The notes beneath the pieces were generated by a model. That model did not search any database and was not told the DNA's origin. It saw nothing but the letters and a program-made list of their open reading frames with translations. Source: Streptomyces sp. 8K308 (GTDB taxonomy: Bacteria > Actinomycetota > Actinomycetes > Streptomycetales > Streptomycetaceae). From it: DNA of 64,000 nucleotides. Both the position numbers and the translations under genes were made by a program. This document shows, in pieces, positions 48,323 to 53,215 of this stretch. Every line of letters starts with the position of its first letter. Position 1 is the first letter of the stretch. Where the stretch lies: the NCBI RefSeq assembly GCF_004348315.1, contig NZ_SMKC01000004.1, forward strand, positions 1 to 64,000, given 5' to 3'.

Positions 48323-49111
48323 CTACGGCGCGAGCCGCTGGAACAGCATCAGCCACTGCGGCGGGCTGACCACCCCCACCGCCGCGTCGGCCGGGATCCC
48401 GGCCGCGCGCAGCGCGTCACGGACCCGGGCCGCCCGGCGCCGCCGGGAGAGGGTGGCCCGCAGCGAGCCGCCGACGCCGGTGAAGCCCTCGGCGACCAGC
48501 GCCCGGTACGCCGGCAGCCGGTGCCCGGGCAGCAGCGGCTCGGTCCTGCGGGTGATCCGCAGCACCGCGGAGTCGGTGCGCGGCACCGGCGTGAAGTGCT
48601 CGCGGCGGATCCGTGGCCCGAGCTCCCAGCCGTGCTCGGGCCAGCTGGTGACCGTCAGCAGCGGCCACGTGCCGAAGTCGCCGGTGCGGCGCCGCGCGAA
48701 CTCCAGCTGGGTGACGAGCGTCGCCGAGGTCAGCGCCCGTGCGCCGAGGCACCAGCGCACGATGTCCGTGGTGCGCGAGTAAGGGATGTTGCCGACCACC
48801 GCGAACGGGGTGCGCGGCGGGGCGGCGCGCAGGAAGTCGCCGGCCACGACGCGCACGTTCCGCGCCGGGGCGAGGCGGGCCGGGAGCCGGCGGGAGAGCG
48901 CCGGGTCGATCTCGTAGGCGACGACCCGGCCGGCCGAGCCGGCGAGCACCCGGGTCAGCGTGCCCTCGCCGGCGCCCGGCTCGAGCACCGTCTCGTCGGG
49001 CCGCAGCCGCGCGGTCCGCACGATCATGCCGAGCACGCCGGGCTCGTGGAGGAAGTTCTGTGAGAAGGCCCTCCGCCTGGCGCGGGGGTGGTGGATGCGC
49101 TCGCGTGCCAT
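48323..49111 (-). CDS. erm: Erm-family 23S rRNA (adenine-N6)-methyltransferase
   Basis: Methylates A2058 of 23S rRNA, giving resistance to macrolides, lincosamides and streptogramin B. The 262-residue protein has SAM motif I VLEPGAGEGTLTRVLAG, motif II YEIDPALSRRLP, and the catalytic motif IV NIPYSRTTDIVRWCLG. That last motif marks Erm rather than KsgA (which has NLPY). A basic N terminus (ARERIHHPRARRRAFSQNFLHEPGVLG) is also typical. Translation is predicted to be controlled by the leader at 49112-49363. It diverges from a large ABC exporter. The organism is likely to make or meet such antibiotics; no biosynthetic genes are in view. Confidence 0.93.
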   Translation of the reverse strand: MARERIHHPRARRRAFSQNFLHEPGVLGMIVRTARLRPDETVLEPGAGEGTLTRVLAGSAGRVVAYEIDPALSRRLPARLAPARNVRVVAGDFLRAAPPRTPFAVVGNIPYSRTTDIVRWCLGARALTSATLVTQLEFARRRTGDFGTWPLLTVTSWPEHGWELGPRIRREHFTPVPRTDSAVLRITRRTEPLLPGHRLPAYRALVAEGFTGVGGSLRATLSRRRRAARVRDALRAAGIPADAAVGVVSPPQWLMLFQRLAP

Positions 49112-49120
49112 GAAGGCTCA

Positions 49121-49268
49121 CGTCCTCGTGTGTGCGAGGACAGGCCGGGGCGGCGGTAGGGAGACGCGAGAGGGTGCCGACGGCCTGTCCGGTGGTCAGA
49201 GACACACGGACGGCCCTGATCGGGCACGGGAGAGCTGGCTACTGCGGGACGCTCAGGCGCCGGACAGG
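49121..49268 (-). promoter_or_regulatory. Four-segment translational attenuator of erm
   Basis: In minus-strand order: segment 1 CCTGTCCGG (49260-49268, codons 32-35 of the leader peptide), segment 2 CCGGACAGGCC (49182-49192), segment 3 GGCCTGTCCTCG (49135-49146), segment 4 CGAGGACG (49121-49128, containing the erm GAGGA ribosome binding site). Pairings 1:2 (9 bp), 2:3 (9 bp) and 3:4 (7 bp) are all perfect. 1:2 plus 3:4 hides the ribosome binding site; stalling over segment 1 would favour 2:3 and expose it. Confidence 0.85.
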
Positions 49269-49363
49269 TCCCCCAGGACCAGGGCCGGGCGCCGGTGCGC
49301 AGGCGGGCGTTCGTCGCCGGTCTGCGCAACGGCGCACAGACCGCGGATGAAGGTCGCTCCCAT
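49253..49363 (-). CDS. Leader peptide of erm, 36 residues
   Basis: A short open frame starting ATG at 49363 and ending TGA at 49253-49255. The peptide begins MGATFIRGLCAVAQTG and ends PALVLGDLSGA. It contains HRRP and RP-rich codons in the middle. Segment 1 of the attenuator spans its last codons (32-35), so a ribosome stalled shortly before would switch the hairpins. A further bulged hairpin covers codons 8-15. It has no ribosome binding site, consistent with a leaderless mRNA from the promoter at 49371-49400. Which codon causes stalling is unknown. Confidence 0.72.
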   Translation of the reverse strand: MGATFIRGLCAVAQTGDERPPAHRRPALVLGDLSGA

Positions 49364-49370
49364 GGCCGCG

Positions 49371-49400
49371 ACGCTACGCACGCCGCCCGGCCCCGCGCAA
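49371..49400 (-). promoter_or_regulatory. erm leader promoter
   Basis: -35 TTGCGC (minus strand; 49395-49400) and -10 TAGCGT (49371-49376) are 18 bp apart. The -10 ends 7 bp before the leader ATG, so transcription should begin at or next to that codon. Confidence 0.6.
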
Positions 49401-49507
49401 CCGGATTACCGTTCCGACGATCAGCGGTTCATAGTGTTGCTGTGGGATGAAATCCGCAGGTCCCGGCGTTTGGCTTCCCTGGGATACGACAGCGAGGGAG
49501 AGACGGC

Positions 49508-52500
49508 GTGCCCAGTGGTGGTGGTCGTGGTGGTGGTCGTGGTGGTGGATGGATACGGCGGCTGACCGCCTACTGCTGGCGTTACCGCCGCAACCTGCTG
49601 CTCTCCGTGGGCGCCTCGCTGGTCGGCATGGCCGTGATGGCGCTGATGCCGCTGATCATCAAGAACGTCATCGACGACGTCGTGGTCGGCGGCCAGGGCG
49701 GGCTCGGCGGGCAGATCGGACTGCTGATCGCCGCCGCCGTCCTCGTCTACGCGCTCACCTTCATCCGCCGCTACTACGGCGGCCGGCTCGGCATCGACGT
49801 CCAGCACGACCTGCGGACCGAGATCTTCCGCACCATCACCCGCCTCGACGGCCGCCGCCAGGACCAGCTGTCCACCGGGCAGGTCGTCGGCCGCGCCACC
49901 AGCGACCTCCAGCTCATCCAGGGCCTGCTCTTCATGCTGCCGATGACCATCGGCAACCTGATGCTCTTCGCGGTCTCGCTGCTCGTGATGGTCACCCTCT
50001 CGCCGCCGCTGACCCTGGTCGCACTCGCCGTCGGCCCCGCCCTCTGGTTCATCACCGTCCGCAGCCGCGACCGGCTCTTCCCCGCCACCTGGTACGCGCA
50101 GCAGCGCGCCGCCGAGGTGGCCGGCGTGGTCGACGGCGCCGTCACCGGCGTCCGCGTCGTCAAGGGCTTCGGGCAGGAGGACCAGGAGACCGGCAAGCTG
50201 CGCGACGTCAGCCGCCGGCTCTTCGGCGCCCGGATGCGCACCGTCCGGCTCAACGCCCGCTACACCCCGGCGCTCCAGGCCGTGCCCGCGCTCGGGCAGG
50301 TCGCCATGCTGGCGCTCGGCGGCTGGATGGCGACCCGGGGCCAGATCTCGCTTGGCACCTTCGTCGCCTTCTCCACCTACCTCGCGCAACTCGTCGGCCC
50401 GGTCCGGATGTTCACCCTCATCCTGACCATGGGCCAGCAGGCGCGGGCCGGTGTCGAGCGGGTCATCGAACTCATCGACACCCGGCCCGAGATCACCGAG
50501 GCCCCGGACGCGCACACGCTGCCGGCCGACGCCCCGGCCACCGTCGAGTTCGACCGCGTCTCCTTCGGCTACGGTCCGGAGCGGCCCGTGCTGCGCGACC
50601 TCAGCCTGCGCATCGAGCCGGGCGAGACGCTCGCCGTCGTCGGCCCCTCTGGCAGCGGCAAGTCCACCGTCTCCCTGCTGCTGCCGCGCTTCTACGACCC
50701 CGACGAGGGCGCCGTCAGGATCGGCGGCGAGGACGTCAGGCACCTCACCTACGACTCGCTGCGCACCGCCATCGGCCTGGTCCCCGAGGACAGCTTCCTC
50801 TTCTCCGACACCATCCGCGCCAACCTCGCCTACGGGCACCCGGAGGCCGACGAGCGGCAGATCAGGGCCGCCGCCAGGGCCGCCCAGGCCGAGGACTTCA
50901 TCCTGGCGCTCCCCGACGGCTACGACACCGTCATCGGCGAGCAGGGCCTGACCCTCTCCGGCGGCCAGCGGCAGCGGATCGCGCTGGCCCGCGCCATCCT
51001 CACCGACCCCAGGCTCCTGATCCTGGACGACGCCACCTCGGCCGTGGACGCCCGCGTCGAGCACGAGATCCACAGCGCGCTGAAGTCCGTGATGGCGGAC
51101 CGCACCACCCTGCTGATCGCCCACCGCCAGTCCACGCTCCAGCTCGCCGACCGGATCGCCGTGCTGGACGGCGGCCGGCTCGTCGACACCGGAAGCCACG
51201 AGGAGCTCGTCGAGCGCTGCGAGCTCTACCGCGCCCTGCTCGCCGACCCCGGCGAGCTCGGCGGCGTCGAGCGCGACCCTGCCGGGGTCGAGGCCGAGCC
51301 GGCCGGCGACCCCTGGCCGGACGTGACCGAGGTCCAGGACGAGGAGGCCGGCAGCCCGGAGCTGCGGGCCCGGGTCGCCGCCCTGCCGCCCGCCACCGAC
51401 ACGCCCGACATCGACGAGGCGCGGGCCGCGCGCCCCGAGACCGAGTACGGGCTGCGCCGGCTGCTCGCCGGCCTCGGCCGCCCGCTGCTGGTCGCCCTGC
51501 TGCTCGTGGTCGCCGACGCCGCCGCCTCCCTGGCGGTTCCGGTGCTGATCAGGCACGGCATCGACCAGGGCGTGGAGCGGGCCGCGCTCGGCGCCGTGTG
51601 GGCCGCGTCCGGCATCGCGCTCGCCGTGGTGCTCGGCCAGTGGGCCGCCCAGTACGGCGCGATCCGCGCGGTCGGCCGCACCGGCGAGCGTGCCCTCTAC
51701 TCGCTGCGCGTCAAGATCTTCGCCCAGCTCCAGCGGCTCGGCCTCGACTACTACGAGCGCGAGCAGGCCGGCCGGGTGATGACCAGGATGACGACGGATG
51801 TCGACGCCCTGACGACCTTCCTCCAGACGGGGCTCACCCAGGCGCTGGTCGCCGTGCTCACCTTCTTCGGCATCATGGGCGTGCTGATCGCCATCGACGT
51901 CCAGCTGGCCCTCATCGTGCTGGCCACCCTGGTGCCGCTGGCCGCCGGCACCGTGGTGTTCCGCCGGCACAGCTCGCGCGCCTACGAGCTGGCGCGCGAG
52001 CGGGTCAGCGGCGTCAACGCCGACCTCCAGGAGTCCGTGGCCGGGCTGCGGATCGTCCAGGCCTTCAGGCGCGAGCGGGACGGCTACGAGCGCTTCACCG
52101 ACCGCTCCGACGGCTACCGGCAGGCCAGGGTGCACGGCCAGTGGCTGATCTCCGTCTACTTCCCCTTCGTGCAGCTGCTCGCCAGCCTGGCCACCGCCGG
52201 GGTGCTGGTGGTCGGCGCCGGCCGGGTCGGGGACGGCACCCTGACCGCCGGGGCCCTGGTCGCCTACCTCCTCTACATCGAGCTGTTCTTCGCCCCCGTC
52301 CAGCAGCTCTCCCAGGTCTTCGACGGCTACCAGCAGGCCGTCGTCTCGCTCGGCCGCATCCAGGAGCTCCTGCGCGAGCGCACCTCGACGCCGGCCCCCG
52401 AGCGGCCGACCGGCGTCGAGTCGCTGCGTGGCGAGCTGGAGTTCGACGACGTCCGGTTCGCCTACCGGGGCGCCGACGACGAGGCGCTGGCCGGCGTCAC

Positions 52501-53215
52501 CCTGCGGGTGCCGGCCGGGCAGACCGTCGCCTTCGTCGGCGAGACCGGCGCCGGCAAGTCCACCCTGGTCAAGCTGGTGGCGCGCTACCACGACCCGACG
52601 GCGGGCGCGGTGCGGGTGGACGGCACCGACCTGCGCGAACTCGACCTCGCCGGCTACCGGCACAGGCTCGGCGTGGTGCCGCAGGAGCCCTACCTGTTCC
52701 CCGGCACCGTGCGGGACGCCATCGCCTACGGCCGGCCAGCGGCGACCGACGCCGAGGTGGAGGCGGCGGCCAGGGCGGTCGGGGCGCACGCCATGATCGC
52801 CGCGCTCCCCGGCGGCTACCGGCACCGGGTCGCCGAGCGCGGCCGCAACCTCTCGGCCGGCCAGCGCCAGCTGATCGCCCTGGCCCGCGCCGAACTGGTG
52901 CGGCCCGACATCCTGCTGCTCGACGAGGCCACCGCGGCGCTCGACCTCGCCACCGAGTCCCTGGTCAACCAGGCCACCGATCGCCTGGCCGGCAGCCGCA
53001 CCACCCTGGTGGTGGCCCACCGCCTCAGCACCGCCGCTCGCGCCGACCGCGTCGTCGTCCTCGACCACGGCCGGATCGTGGAGGACGGTCCGCACGCGGA
53101 TCTCCTCGCCGCCGGCGGGCGCTACGCCCGCCTGTGGGCCAGCTACACCGGCGCGGAACAAGGCGCCGAGACCACGGCGGACGACACGGAGGCGCTGCAG
53201 TCGGTCAAGCCATGA
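49508..53215 (+). CDS. Tandem-fused ABC exporter (two complete TMD-NBD half transporters)
   Basis: A 1235-residue single-chain exporter in order TMD1-NBD1-TMD2-NBD2. Walker A motifs are GPSGSGKST (about 379) and GETGAGKST (about 1011); signature motifs are LSGGQRQRIALARA and LSAGQRQLIALARA; Walker B sets are LLILDDATSAVD and ILLLDEATAALD. The first NBD thus has Asp in place of the catalytic glutamate, suggesting an asymmetric, degenerate site. A Gly/Arg-rich N-terminal run (GGGRGGGRGGG) precedes the first helix. GTG 49508 has GAGGGAGAG upstream. Divergence from erm suggests drug export, but the substrate is not shown. Confidence 0.92.
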   Translation: MPSGGGRGGGRGGGWIRRLTAYCWRYRRNLLLSVGASLVGMAVMALMPLIIKNVIDDVVVGGQGGLGGQIGLLIAAAVLVYALTFIRRYYGGRLGIDVQHDLRTEIFRTITRLDGRRQDQLSTGQVVGRATSDLQLIQGLLFMLPMTIGNLMLFAVSLLVMVTLSPPLTLVALAVGPALWFITVRSRDRLFPATWYAQQRAAEVAGVVDGAVTGVRVVKGFGQEDQETGKLRDVSRRLFGARMRTVRLNARYTPALQAVPALGQVAMLALGGWMATRGQISLGTFVAFSTYLAQLVGPVRMFTLILTMGQQARAGVERVIELIDTRPEITEAPDAHTLPADAPATVEFDRVSFGYGPERPVLRDLSLRIEPGETLAVVGPSGSGKSTVSLLLPRFYDPDEGAVRIGGEDVRHLTYDSLRTAIGLVPEDSFLFSDTIRANLAYGHPEADERQIRAAARAAQAEDFILALPDGYDTVIGEQGLTLSGGQRQRIALARAILTDPRLLILDDATSAVDARVEHEIHSALKSVMADRTTLLIAHRQSTLQLADRIAVLDGGRLVDTGSHEELVERCELYRALLADPGELGGVERDPAGVEAEPAGDPWPDVTEVQDEEAGSPELRARVAALPPATDTPDIDEARAARPETEYGLRRLLAGLGRPLLVALLLVVADAAASLAVPVLIRHGIDQGVERAALGAVWAASGIALAVVLGQWAAQYGAIRAVGRTGERALYSLRVKIFAQLQRLGLDYYEREQAGRVMTRMTTDVDALTTFLQTGLTQALVAVLTFFGIMGVLIAIDVQLALIVLATLVPLAAGTVVFRRHSSRAYELARERVSGVNADLQESVAGLRIVQAFRRERDGYERFTDRSDGYRQARVHGQWLISVYFPFVQLLASLATAGVLVVGAGRVGDGTLTAGALVAYLLYIELFFAPVQQLSQVFDGYQQAVVSLGRIQELLRERTSTPAPERPTGVESLRGELEFDDVRFAYRGADDEALAGVTLRVPAGQTVAFVGETGAGKSTLVKLVARYHDPTAGAVRVDGTDLRELDLAGYRHRLGVVPQEPYLFPGTVRDAIAYGRPAATDAEVEAAARAVGAHAMIAALPGGYRHRVAERGRNLSAGQRQLIALARAELVRPDILLLDEATAALDLATESLVNQATDRLAGSRTTLVVAHRLSTAARADRVVVLDHGRIVEDGPHADLLAAGGRYARLWASYTGAEQGAETTADDTEALQSVKP

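Follow-up and report, generated by a model that had tools for sequence, protein, structure and literature searches.

A predicted five-segment RNA attenuator and its leaderless leader peptide ahead of a chromosomal erm gene in Streptomyces sp. 8K308

Introduction

The chromosomal erm gene located in a 64,000-nucleotide stretch of DNA from Streptomyces sp. 8K308 (contig NZ_SMKC01000004.1, positions 1 to 64,000; hereafter the window) raises the question of how its expression is controlled by the sequence that precedes it. Leader-peptide control of erm genes is known in Streptomyces from ErmSF (TlrA) and ErmSV, and in ermC (pE194) a leader peptide with an IFVI stall at codon 9 governs four segments that form alternating hairpins, the last segment containing the ribosome-binding site. 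The original prediction, made from the window alone, interpreted the region as an attenuator of the ermC kind, in which segment 1 was placed in codons 32–35 of a 36-codon leader frame. In the present work, we have compared this region with those upstream of related erm genes. A real attenuator had been found; its first segment was misassigned, and a second conserved pairing and the WblC-type character of the promoter were missed. The species distribution of these elements and the control that they may exert are discussed below.

Materials and Methods

The clade set (n = 21) consisted of the window and 20 relatives chosen by leader motif. Four additional loci with a deviating or unresolved leader (viz. 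L012, L025, L097, and L100) were kept outside of this set; L012, L097, and L100 were included in the wider leader and geometry comparison, and L025 and L030 in the promoter-leader search only. The latter search relied on the promoter only, requiring a WblC-type promoter with up to 3 mismatches and a start codon 5–9 nt after the -10 element; L008, a member of the clade set, gave no match in it. In the helix scan, the strongest contiguous helix was sought between positions -30 to +47 around the presumed P-site codon and the downstream RNA, the presumed P-site codon being the X of R-X-R and, in the window, the codon set by register. Contiguous helices replaced an RNAduplex-style pairing, which produced long multi-loop duplexes that were uninterpretable.

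Results

The erm Gene, its Leader Frame and its Promoter

The frame at 49111–48326 encodes a protein of 262 aa that scores 326.4 bits against the NCBIfam model NF000337 (ErmE/H/O/R), whose cut-off is 320, in agreement with its original assignment as erm. The leader frame, the promoter and the four segments of the original prediction were likewise all found at the positions given for them (minus strand). The nearest relatives found, L007 and L088, have Erm proteins that are 88–90% identical to that of the window. The features of the gene, leader frame and promoter are as follows:

48326–49111, minus strand: erm, 23S rRNA (adenine-2058) methyltransferase of the ErmE/H/O/R type, 262 aa (NCBIfam model)
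49253–49363, minus strand: leader open reading frame, 36 codons and a stop codon (49255–49253), predicted leaderless, MGATFIRGLCAVAQTGDERPPAHRRPALVLGDLSGA (sequence, promoter-leader search)
49371–49376, minus strand: -10 element TAGCGT, separated by 7 nt from the leader ATG at 49363 (consensus match)
49395–49400, minus strand: -35 element TTGCGC (consensus match)
49404–49409, minus strand: WblC/WhiB7-type motif GTAATC, corresponding to GAAAWY of the consensus, with 3 bp between it and the -35 element downstream (published consensus, PMC7157823)

An ABC transporter frame (49508–53215, plus strand) is divergent from erm. Between the two genes, TTTCATCCCAC is present at 49442–49452 (minus strand), where AGCAACA follows it, and TTTCATCCCAC was seen in 7 of the 22 clade loci listed, 89–116 nt upstream of the leader start (89 nt in the window, L007, L015, and L089). 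A short GTGGTGGTGGTC-type repeat is located at 49515–49548, near the start of the transporter frame. A search of 48900–49600 against Rfam gave three matches up to E = 5, every one of them below its gathering score.

In the available text on S. coelicolor, the WblC/WhiB7 consensus is described as GAAAWY, 3 bp, TKGMNN, 16–19 bp, and TANNNT, and transcripts from such promoters are described as starting mostly 7 or 8 bp after the -10 element (PMC7157823). The promoter in the window (GTAATC-CGG-TTGCGC-18-TAGCGT) has a single mismatch to this consensus, and two or fewer mismatches are found in 18/21 clade leaders vs. 0/6300 shuffled upstream sequences. Of 117 non-duplicate actinobacterial erm loci (10 duplicate rows having been removed; strains of one Nocardia species remain and the loci are not fully independent), 101 gave a leader in the promoter-only search, compared with 15/585 shuffled upstream sequences. 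The distance from the -10 element to the leader start is 7 nt in 89 of these 101 loci and 6 or 8 nt in the remaining 12. On the basis of this consensus fit and of the nearly constant distance from the -10 element across erm loci, translation of the leader probably takes place on a leaderless mRNA, and erm probably belongs to the WblC regulon. The original prediction had positioned the promoter correctly without recognizing its WblC/WhiB7-type identity; its proposal of a leaderless leader peptide, with the leader ATG at the predicted transcription start, describes a design that recurs at the 101 loci, and the presence of an RNA attenuator with such a leader ahead of erm is well supported by the sequence comparisons. 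No promoter-leader combination was found at 16/117 loci, 11 of which (viz. L101, L103, L105, L107, L108, L111, L113, L122–L124, and L127) are from Streptomyces and have a 51–55% identical Erm; erm is perhaps under different control in these 11 loci.

A Predicted Chain of Five RNA Segments

Comparison of the clade set points to five segments, which are numbered I to V below. The remaining line describes segment 1 of the original prediction:

49277–49286, minus strand: segment I, GGCCCTGGTC, leader codons 26–29, the conserved first segment (clade comparison)
49207–49221, minus strand: segment II, GATCAGGGCC followed by GTCCG, able to pair with I or III (clade comparison)
49182–49192, minus strand: segment III, CCGGACAGGCC, originally segment 2 (clade comparison)
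49135–49146, minus strand: segment IV, GGCCTGTCCTCG, originally segment 3 (clade comparison)
49121–49128, minus strand: segment V, CGAGGACG, which includes the presumed erm ribosome-binding site, originally segment 4 (clade comparison)
49260–49268, minus strand: original segment 1, CCTGTCCGG, leader codons 32–35, pairing with III only in the window within the clade set (clade comparison, shuffles)

The three pairings originally described are all perfect in the window, viz. 9 bp for 1:2, 9 bp for 2:3, and 7 bp for 3:4, and they fare differently when compared with chance. The original segments 2 to 4 recur in all 20 clade relatives, and by this recurrence at variable spacing 2:3 and 3:4 exceed chance; across the 21 members, the share of paired cells is 96.8% for III:IV and 100% for IV:V, with the segments nearly invariant while the spacing from III to IV varies between 11 and 152 nt. 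The alternative hairpins III:IV and IV:V, the latter involving the presumed binding site in V, exist as sequence potential, and CGAGGAC is present at 49128–49122 (minus strand). In contrast to its 9 bp in the window, the 1:2 pairing amounts to 5 bp or less in the other 20 members, and a 9-bp match of the leader to the downstream RNA was attained by 52/400 shuffled leaders. The match between CCTGTCCGG and III is best treated as chance or as a very recent addition.

The conserved pairing of the leader, which was overlooked in the original prediction, is that of GGCCCTGGTC (49286–49277) with GATCAGGGCC (49221–49212). Eleven pairs of this I:II helix are formed in 85.7% of cells in the 21 clade members, and its 8-bp core is nearly invariant even though the distance from the leader stop codon to II ranges from 17 to 206 nt. 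Covariation of I:II is weak within the clade because little varies. At 40 Nocardia/Glycomyces-type loci, a helix of different sequence is located at the position of I:II and covaries clearly, with a total of 60 two-sided cells, of which 59 fall within I:II, vs. 22.6 upon shuffling (0/500), in a count for which the structure was drawn from the same alignment. The strongest I:II helix of the set, with 20 perfect bp, is that of L043 (Thermoactinospora rubra, Streptosporangiales), and in Glycomyces the leader frame stops inside the element (W to stop) while the RNA sequence is nonetheless kept. The four-segment arrangement of ermC is not what these comparisons reveal: the partner of the conserved segment I is II, which precedes III, the 1:2 pairing is unconserved, and the predicted arrangement is a five-segment chain, I:II:III:IV:V, in which each segment is able to pair with its neighbor.

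A direct pairing of II with the ribosome-binding site was considered as a common theme and dropped, as it is absent in both the window's clade (15 loci) and the ErmSV-like set (12 loci). Of the Streptosporangiales inspected, 4/5 have it, at the 9th percentile of shuffles or lower, and it is suggestive in some Nocardia. Where present, this pairing would most simply identify I:II as the ON state and so fix the sign of the switch, which we infer for the window's clade.

The II–III element is specific in its distribution. It occurs as one copy in its own genome (7.76 Mb, 703 contigs; exact pattern), and an RNA model of it matched 13/392 Streptomyces genomes under strict filters, in 12 of them just upstream of erm. 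The thirteenth match (G331) is weak at 36.7 bits; neither the frames around it nor the Erm search of that genome revealed an erm, and it was taken as chance. An Erm of 60% identity or more was found in 14 genomes, two of which (G330 and G073) gave no match to the model.

The Arrest Motif of the Leader Peptide

Two further features of the leader frame are required here:

49298–49309, minus strand: codons 19–22 (R-P-P-A), degenerate arrest motif, R-P-R in relatives (leader alignment)
49318–49343, minus strand: hairpin over leader codons 7–16 (sequence, clade comparison)

All 20 clade relatives carry R-P-R at one register, with an A-L-type stretch following at constant spacing (typically RPRxRRPALV). 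The leader of the window reads R19-P20-P21-A22-H23-R24-R25-P26-A27-L28-V29 and lacks an R-X-R, while the nearest relative keeps RPRARRPALV. In the promoter-leader search, R-X-R is present in 98/101 leaders, those of the window, L025, and L030 being the ones in which it is missing; L025, a Streptomyces relative, has a leader with IRPWHRQAL. At an identical or almost identical register, the motif is found as RMRRGPGALT in other Streptomyces, as RLRAARPALV in a Paractinoplanes, as RLRxxAWALP-like sequences in Nocardia, and as R(I/P)R...ALAR in several Streptosporangiales. The RMRRGPGALT leaders presumably represent the ErmSF/ErmSV leader type. In the original prediction, none of the familiar stalling motifs, such as IFVI or a plain R-L-R, had been recognized in the window's leader, and its stall signal had been suggested to be possibly new. 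Since the relatives carry R-X-R, the signal is probably not new in kind, and the window appears to hold a degenerate version of it. In view of this degenerate motif (R-P-P-A-H-R-R), the inducer range or inducibility of the window's leader has probably shifted.

The bulged hairpin originally noted over codons 8–15 is present at 49343–49318. A related GCGC-N(2–5)-GCGC core is found in 16/21 clade leaders, and in several of them this core is flanked by T-A or C-G.

Position of the Downstream Helix

In the available descriptions of R-X-R arrest in ErmDL and tlrB, X occupies the P site and the second R the A site (PMC8298421, PMC6851288). With the presumed P-site codon as the origin, 71/99 leaders have the start of their strongest downstream helix at +12 to +18 nt, where the edge of a stalled ribosome would lie, compared with 12.2 ± 3.1 and a maximum of 18 in 20 rounds in which the downstream RNA was shuffled. 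Leaders with a single R-X-R account for 49/66 starts in this range and leaders with several R-X-R for 21/32, the register of the latter having been chosen partly by the following A-L, which favors a fixed offset. Starts within the range were found for 15/15 ErmSV-like leaders (at +18), 17/23 Nocardia-like leaders (mostly +12), 16/23 leaders of the window's clade (mostly +16/17), 11/16 Glycomyces leaders (+12), 5/11 Streptosporangiales leaders (+13), and 7/11 others; the I:II helix of the window is at +16 to +26 by register. By strength, 23/99 single helices exceed all 20 of their shuffles, and that of the window was matched by 1/20. It is the common position of the helices, not their individual strength, that stands out.

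Toeprints at 15–16 nt are described in the available part of a study of such arrest (PMC6851288), and with this edge a ribosome stalled at R-X-R would not reach segment I in the clade and in the ErmSV-like set; elsewhere, the first few nucleotides of I would overlap with the ribosome. As a yardstick, the best helix in ermC was found at +9 to +17 from codon 9, its stall codon. The contrast in geometry with ermC is thus one of degree.

Folding with a Ribosome in Place

Masked folding was performed on the 21 leaders. With a ribosome at the R-X-R register, I:II has a probability above 0.5 in 18/21, and before V emerges III:IV is formed in 20/21, vs. 12/21 when I is covered (p = 0.0005). The corresponding values are 12/21 with no ribosome, 17/21 with a ribosome at the stop codon (p = 0.10 vs. 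R-X-R), and 18/21 with a ribosome at R-A-R, so that R-P-R and R-A-R are not told apart. In the window, the coordinates suggest that a terminating ribosome would be located just downstream of I and not on it. Once V has emerged, III:IV of at least 5 bp persists in 6/21 (R-X-R) vs. 3/21 (I covered), and the mean probability of IV:V falls only from 0.79 (I covered) to 0.74 (ribosome at R-X-R). Folding with a ribosome footprint had been proposed along with the original prediction; among these 21 leaders it gave no release of the binding site, V being mostly paired at every ribosome position, and it did not separate the models. These calculations weakly favor the direction of the switch that is proposed below.

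Discussion

A Proposed Two-layer Control Region

We consider it about an even chance (a probability of roughly 0.5) that the chromosomal erm gene is preceded by a two-layer control region, in which WblC-type transcription is combined with a five-segment RNA switch and stalling of the leader ribosome is the ON condition. In the first layer, suggested by the promoter, WblC/WhiB7 would raise transcription under ribosome-targeting drugs, and the transcript would start at or next to the leader ATG. The second layer, suggested by the conserved pairings, would consist of the five RNA segments, neighbors among which are able to pair. In the OFF state, leader ribosomes would run through I during transcription, resulting in II:III and IV:V and in a hidden erm binding site. 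In the ON state, a drug-bound ribosome would stall just upstream of I, at the position of the R-X-R of the relatives, and would leave I free at its leading edge, whereupon I:II could form, III would be freed for IV, and V would be exposed. Stalling is proposed to be the ON condition because I:II favors III:IV with V free, while a covered I favors II:III and IV:V. This model builds on the observed sequence, conservation and position of the segments, from which we infer the stalling by a drug and the sign of the switch.

A broader and clearly more tentative proposal is that actinobacterial erm genes share one design with a sign opposite to that of ermC, in which transcription from a WblC promoter would begin at the AUG of the leader itself and a stall at R-X-R would allow the next segment to fold at the leading edge of the ribosome and the erm start to be released, while run-through would erase this fold. 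The window would then have lost the arrest motif and kept the downstream parts, and its leader may respond to some other drug or signal.

Alternative Explanations

It is possible, though we would not expect it, that the design is functional in the clade while the copy in the window is decaying, such that it would not respond to macrolides and erm would be constitutive, silent or controlled by WblC only. The loss of R-X-R in the window, when L007 and L088 with their closely similar Erm proteins have kept it, and its lack in L025 and L030 speak for such decay. Against it, the window has kept an intact promoter, an intact erm frame and all five segments, and erythromycin stalling of ErmDL is described, in the part of the source that was available, as not exclusively dependent on R-L-R (PMC8298421). 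Decay of this one copy can hold together with the two-layer control region as the best explanation for the clade.

Masking of the classical kind could also act upon the conserved pair, such that a free I:II would be OFF and partial coverage of I by the stalled ribosome would be ON; this we regard as rather unlikely. The best helix of ermC is indeed close to the +12 to +21 of Nocardia/Glycomyces, and a stall at R-A-R instead of R-P-R would bring I to about +10 in the clade. However, I mostly starts at +16 to +18 in the clade and the ErmSV-like set, beyond the toeprint edge of 15–16 nt, and the parity of five segments and the direction seen in masked folding weakly favor the opposite sign.

Less probable still is a switch that acts on transcription, by premature and possibly Rho-dependent termination, and not on translation initiation. 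The ErmSF gene tlrA is reportedly controlled by transcription attenuation. In actinobacteria, attenuation of wblC/whiB7 and ABCF genes has been proposed, as far as the available text of these sources goes (PMC12421871, PMC4128351), and this too would favor such a switch; against it, 48900–49600 contains no site resembling an intrinsic terminator, and the conserved segment V itself holds the presumed binding site. The arrangement of the original prediction, in which a ribosome at about codons 24–32 would mask segment 1, is the most improbable. Its four segments all exist in the window with a perfect 1:2 pairing, but this pairing is not shared by the relatives and its length is attained by 52/400 shuffled leaders, and the conserved motif would place the stall well upstream of codon 32.

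If the two-layer control region is correct, the same type of drug-sensing leader, positioned alike with respect to the stalled ribosome, would precede many erm genes of soil actinobacteria, and one leaderless RNA would couple transcriptional control by WblC to control of translation. The copy in the window would then be a natural variant in which the RNA switch is kept and the standard arrest motif is missing, and which could help to show what else such leaders can sense.

Comparison with Known Systems

The closest known type for the attenuator of the window is probably that of ErmSF/ErmSV. Streptomyces loci with an about 50–54% identical Erm have MAANNAI...RMRRGPGALTGPG-like leaders, which we take to be of the ErmSF/ErmSV type; these share R-X-R and A-L in register with the clade, and their I:II is at +18 (15/15). 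They differ from the window in the sequences of the leader, I and II and in their downstream pairings. The ermC system shares with the window a leader peptide, alternating hairpins and a binding site in the last segment; it differs in its four segments, its IFVI stall and a helix at +9 to +17, whereas the window has five segments and a helix at +16 to +26.

WblC/WhiB7 regulon promoters resemble that of the window in motif, spacing and start position, as far as the available text describes them (PMC7157823), and the window differs in that its predicted start coincides with the start codon of a leader peptide. The ErmDL and tlrB leaders (B. subtilis) are described as arresting at R-X-R, the motif that is carried by the clade relatives and is missing in the window (PMC8298421, PMC6851288); in tlrB, the stalled ribosome directly blocks the sequestering hairpin, which differs from what is proposed here. 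In the model put forward for ermB, at least in the available portion of the source, the hairpin hiding the start has a segment in common with another hairpin further upstream, and arrest favors formation of the latter, which has the same sign as our proposal (PMC11264731), but its leader is unrelated and it involves two hairpins instead of a five-segment chain. The same source, a 2024 survey that covered 35 known erm genes together with 43 homologs, reports in its available text small upstream frames for part of them, with no universal conservation (PMC11264731). The promoter, frame and R-X-R recur in most of the actinobacterial loci examined here. No description of this leader family was found in the freely accessible literature searched, and we do not claim that it is unpublished. 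The attenuator is of a known kind, and its five-segment arrangement, shared geometry and lost arrest motif represent variant features of it.
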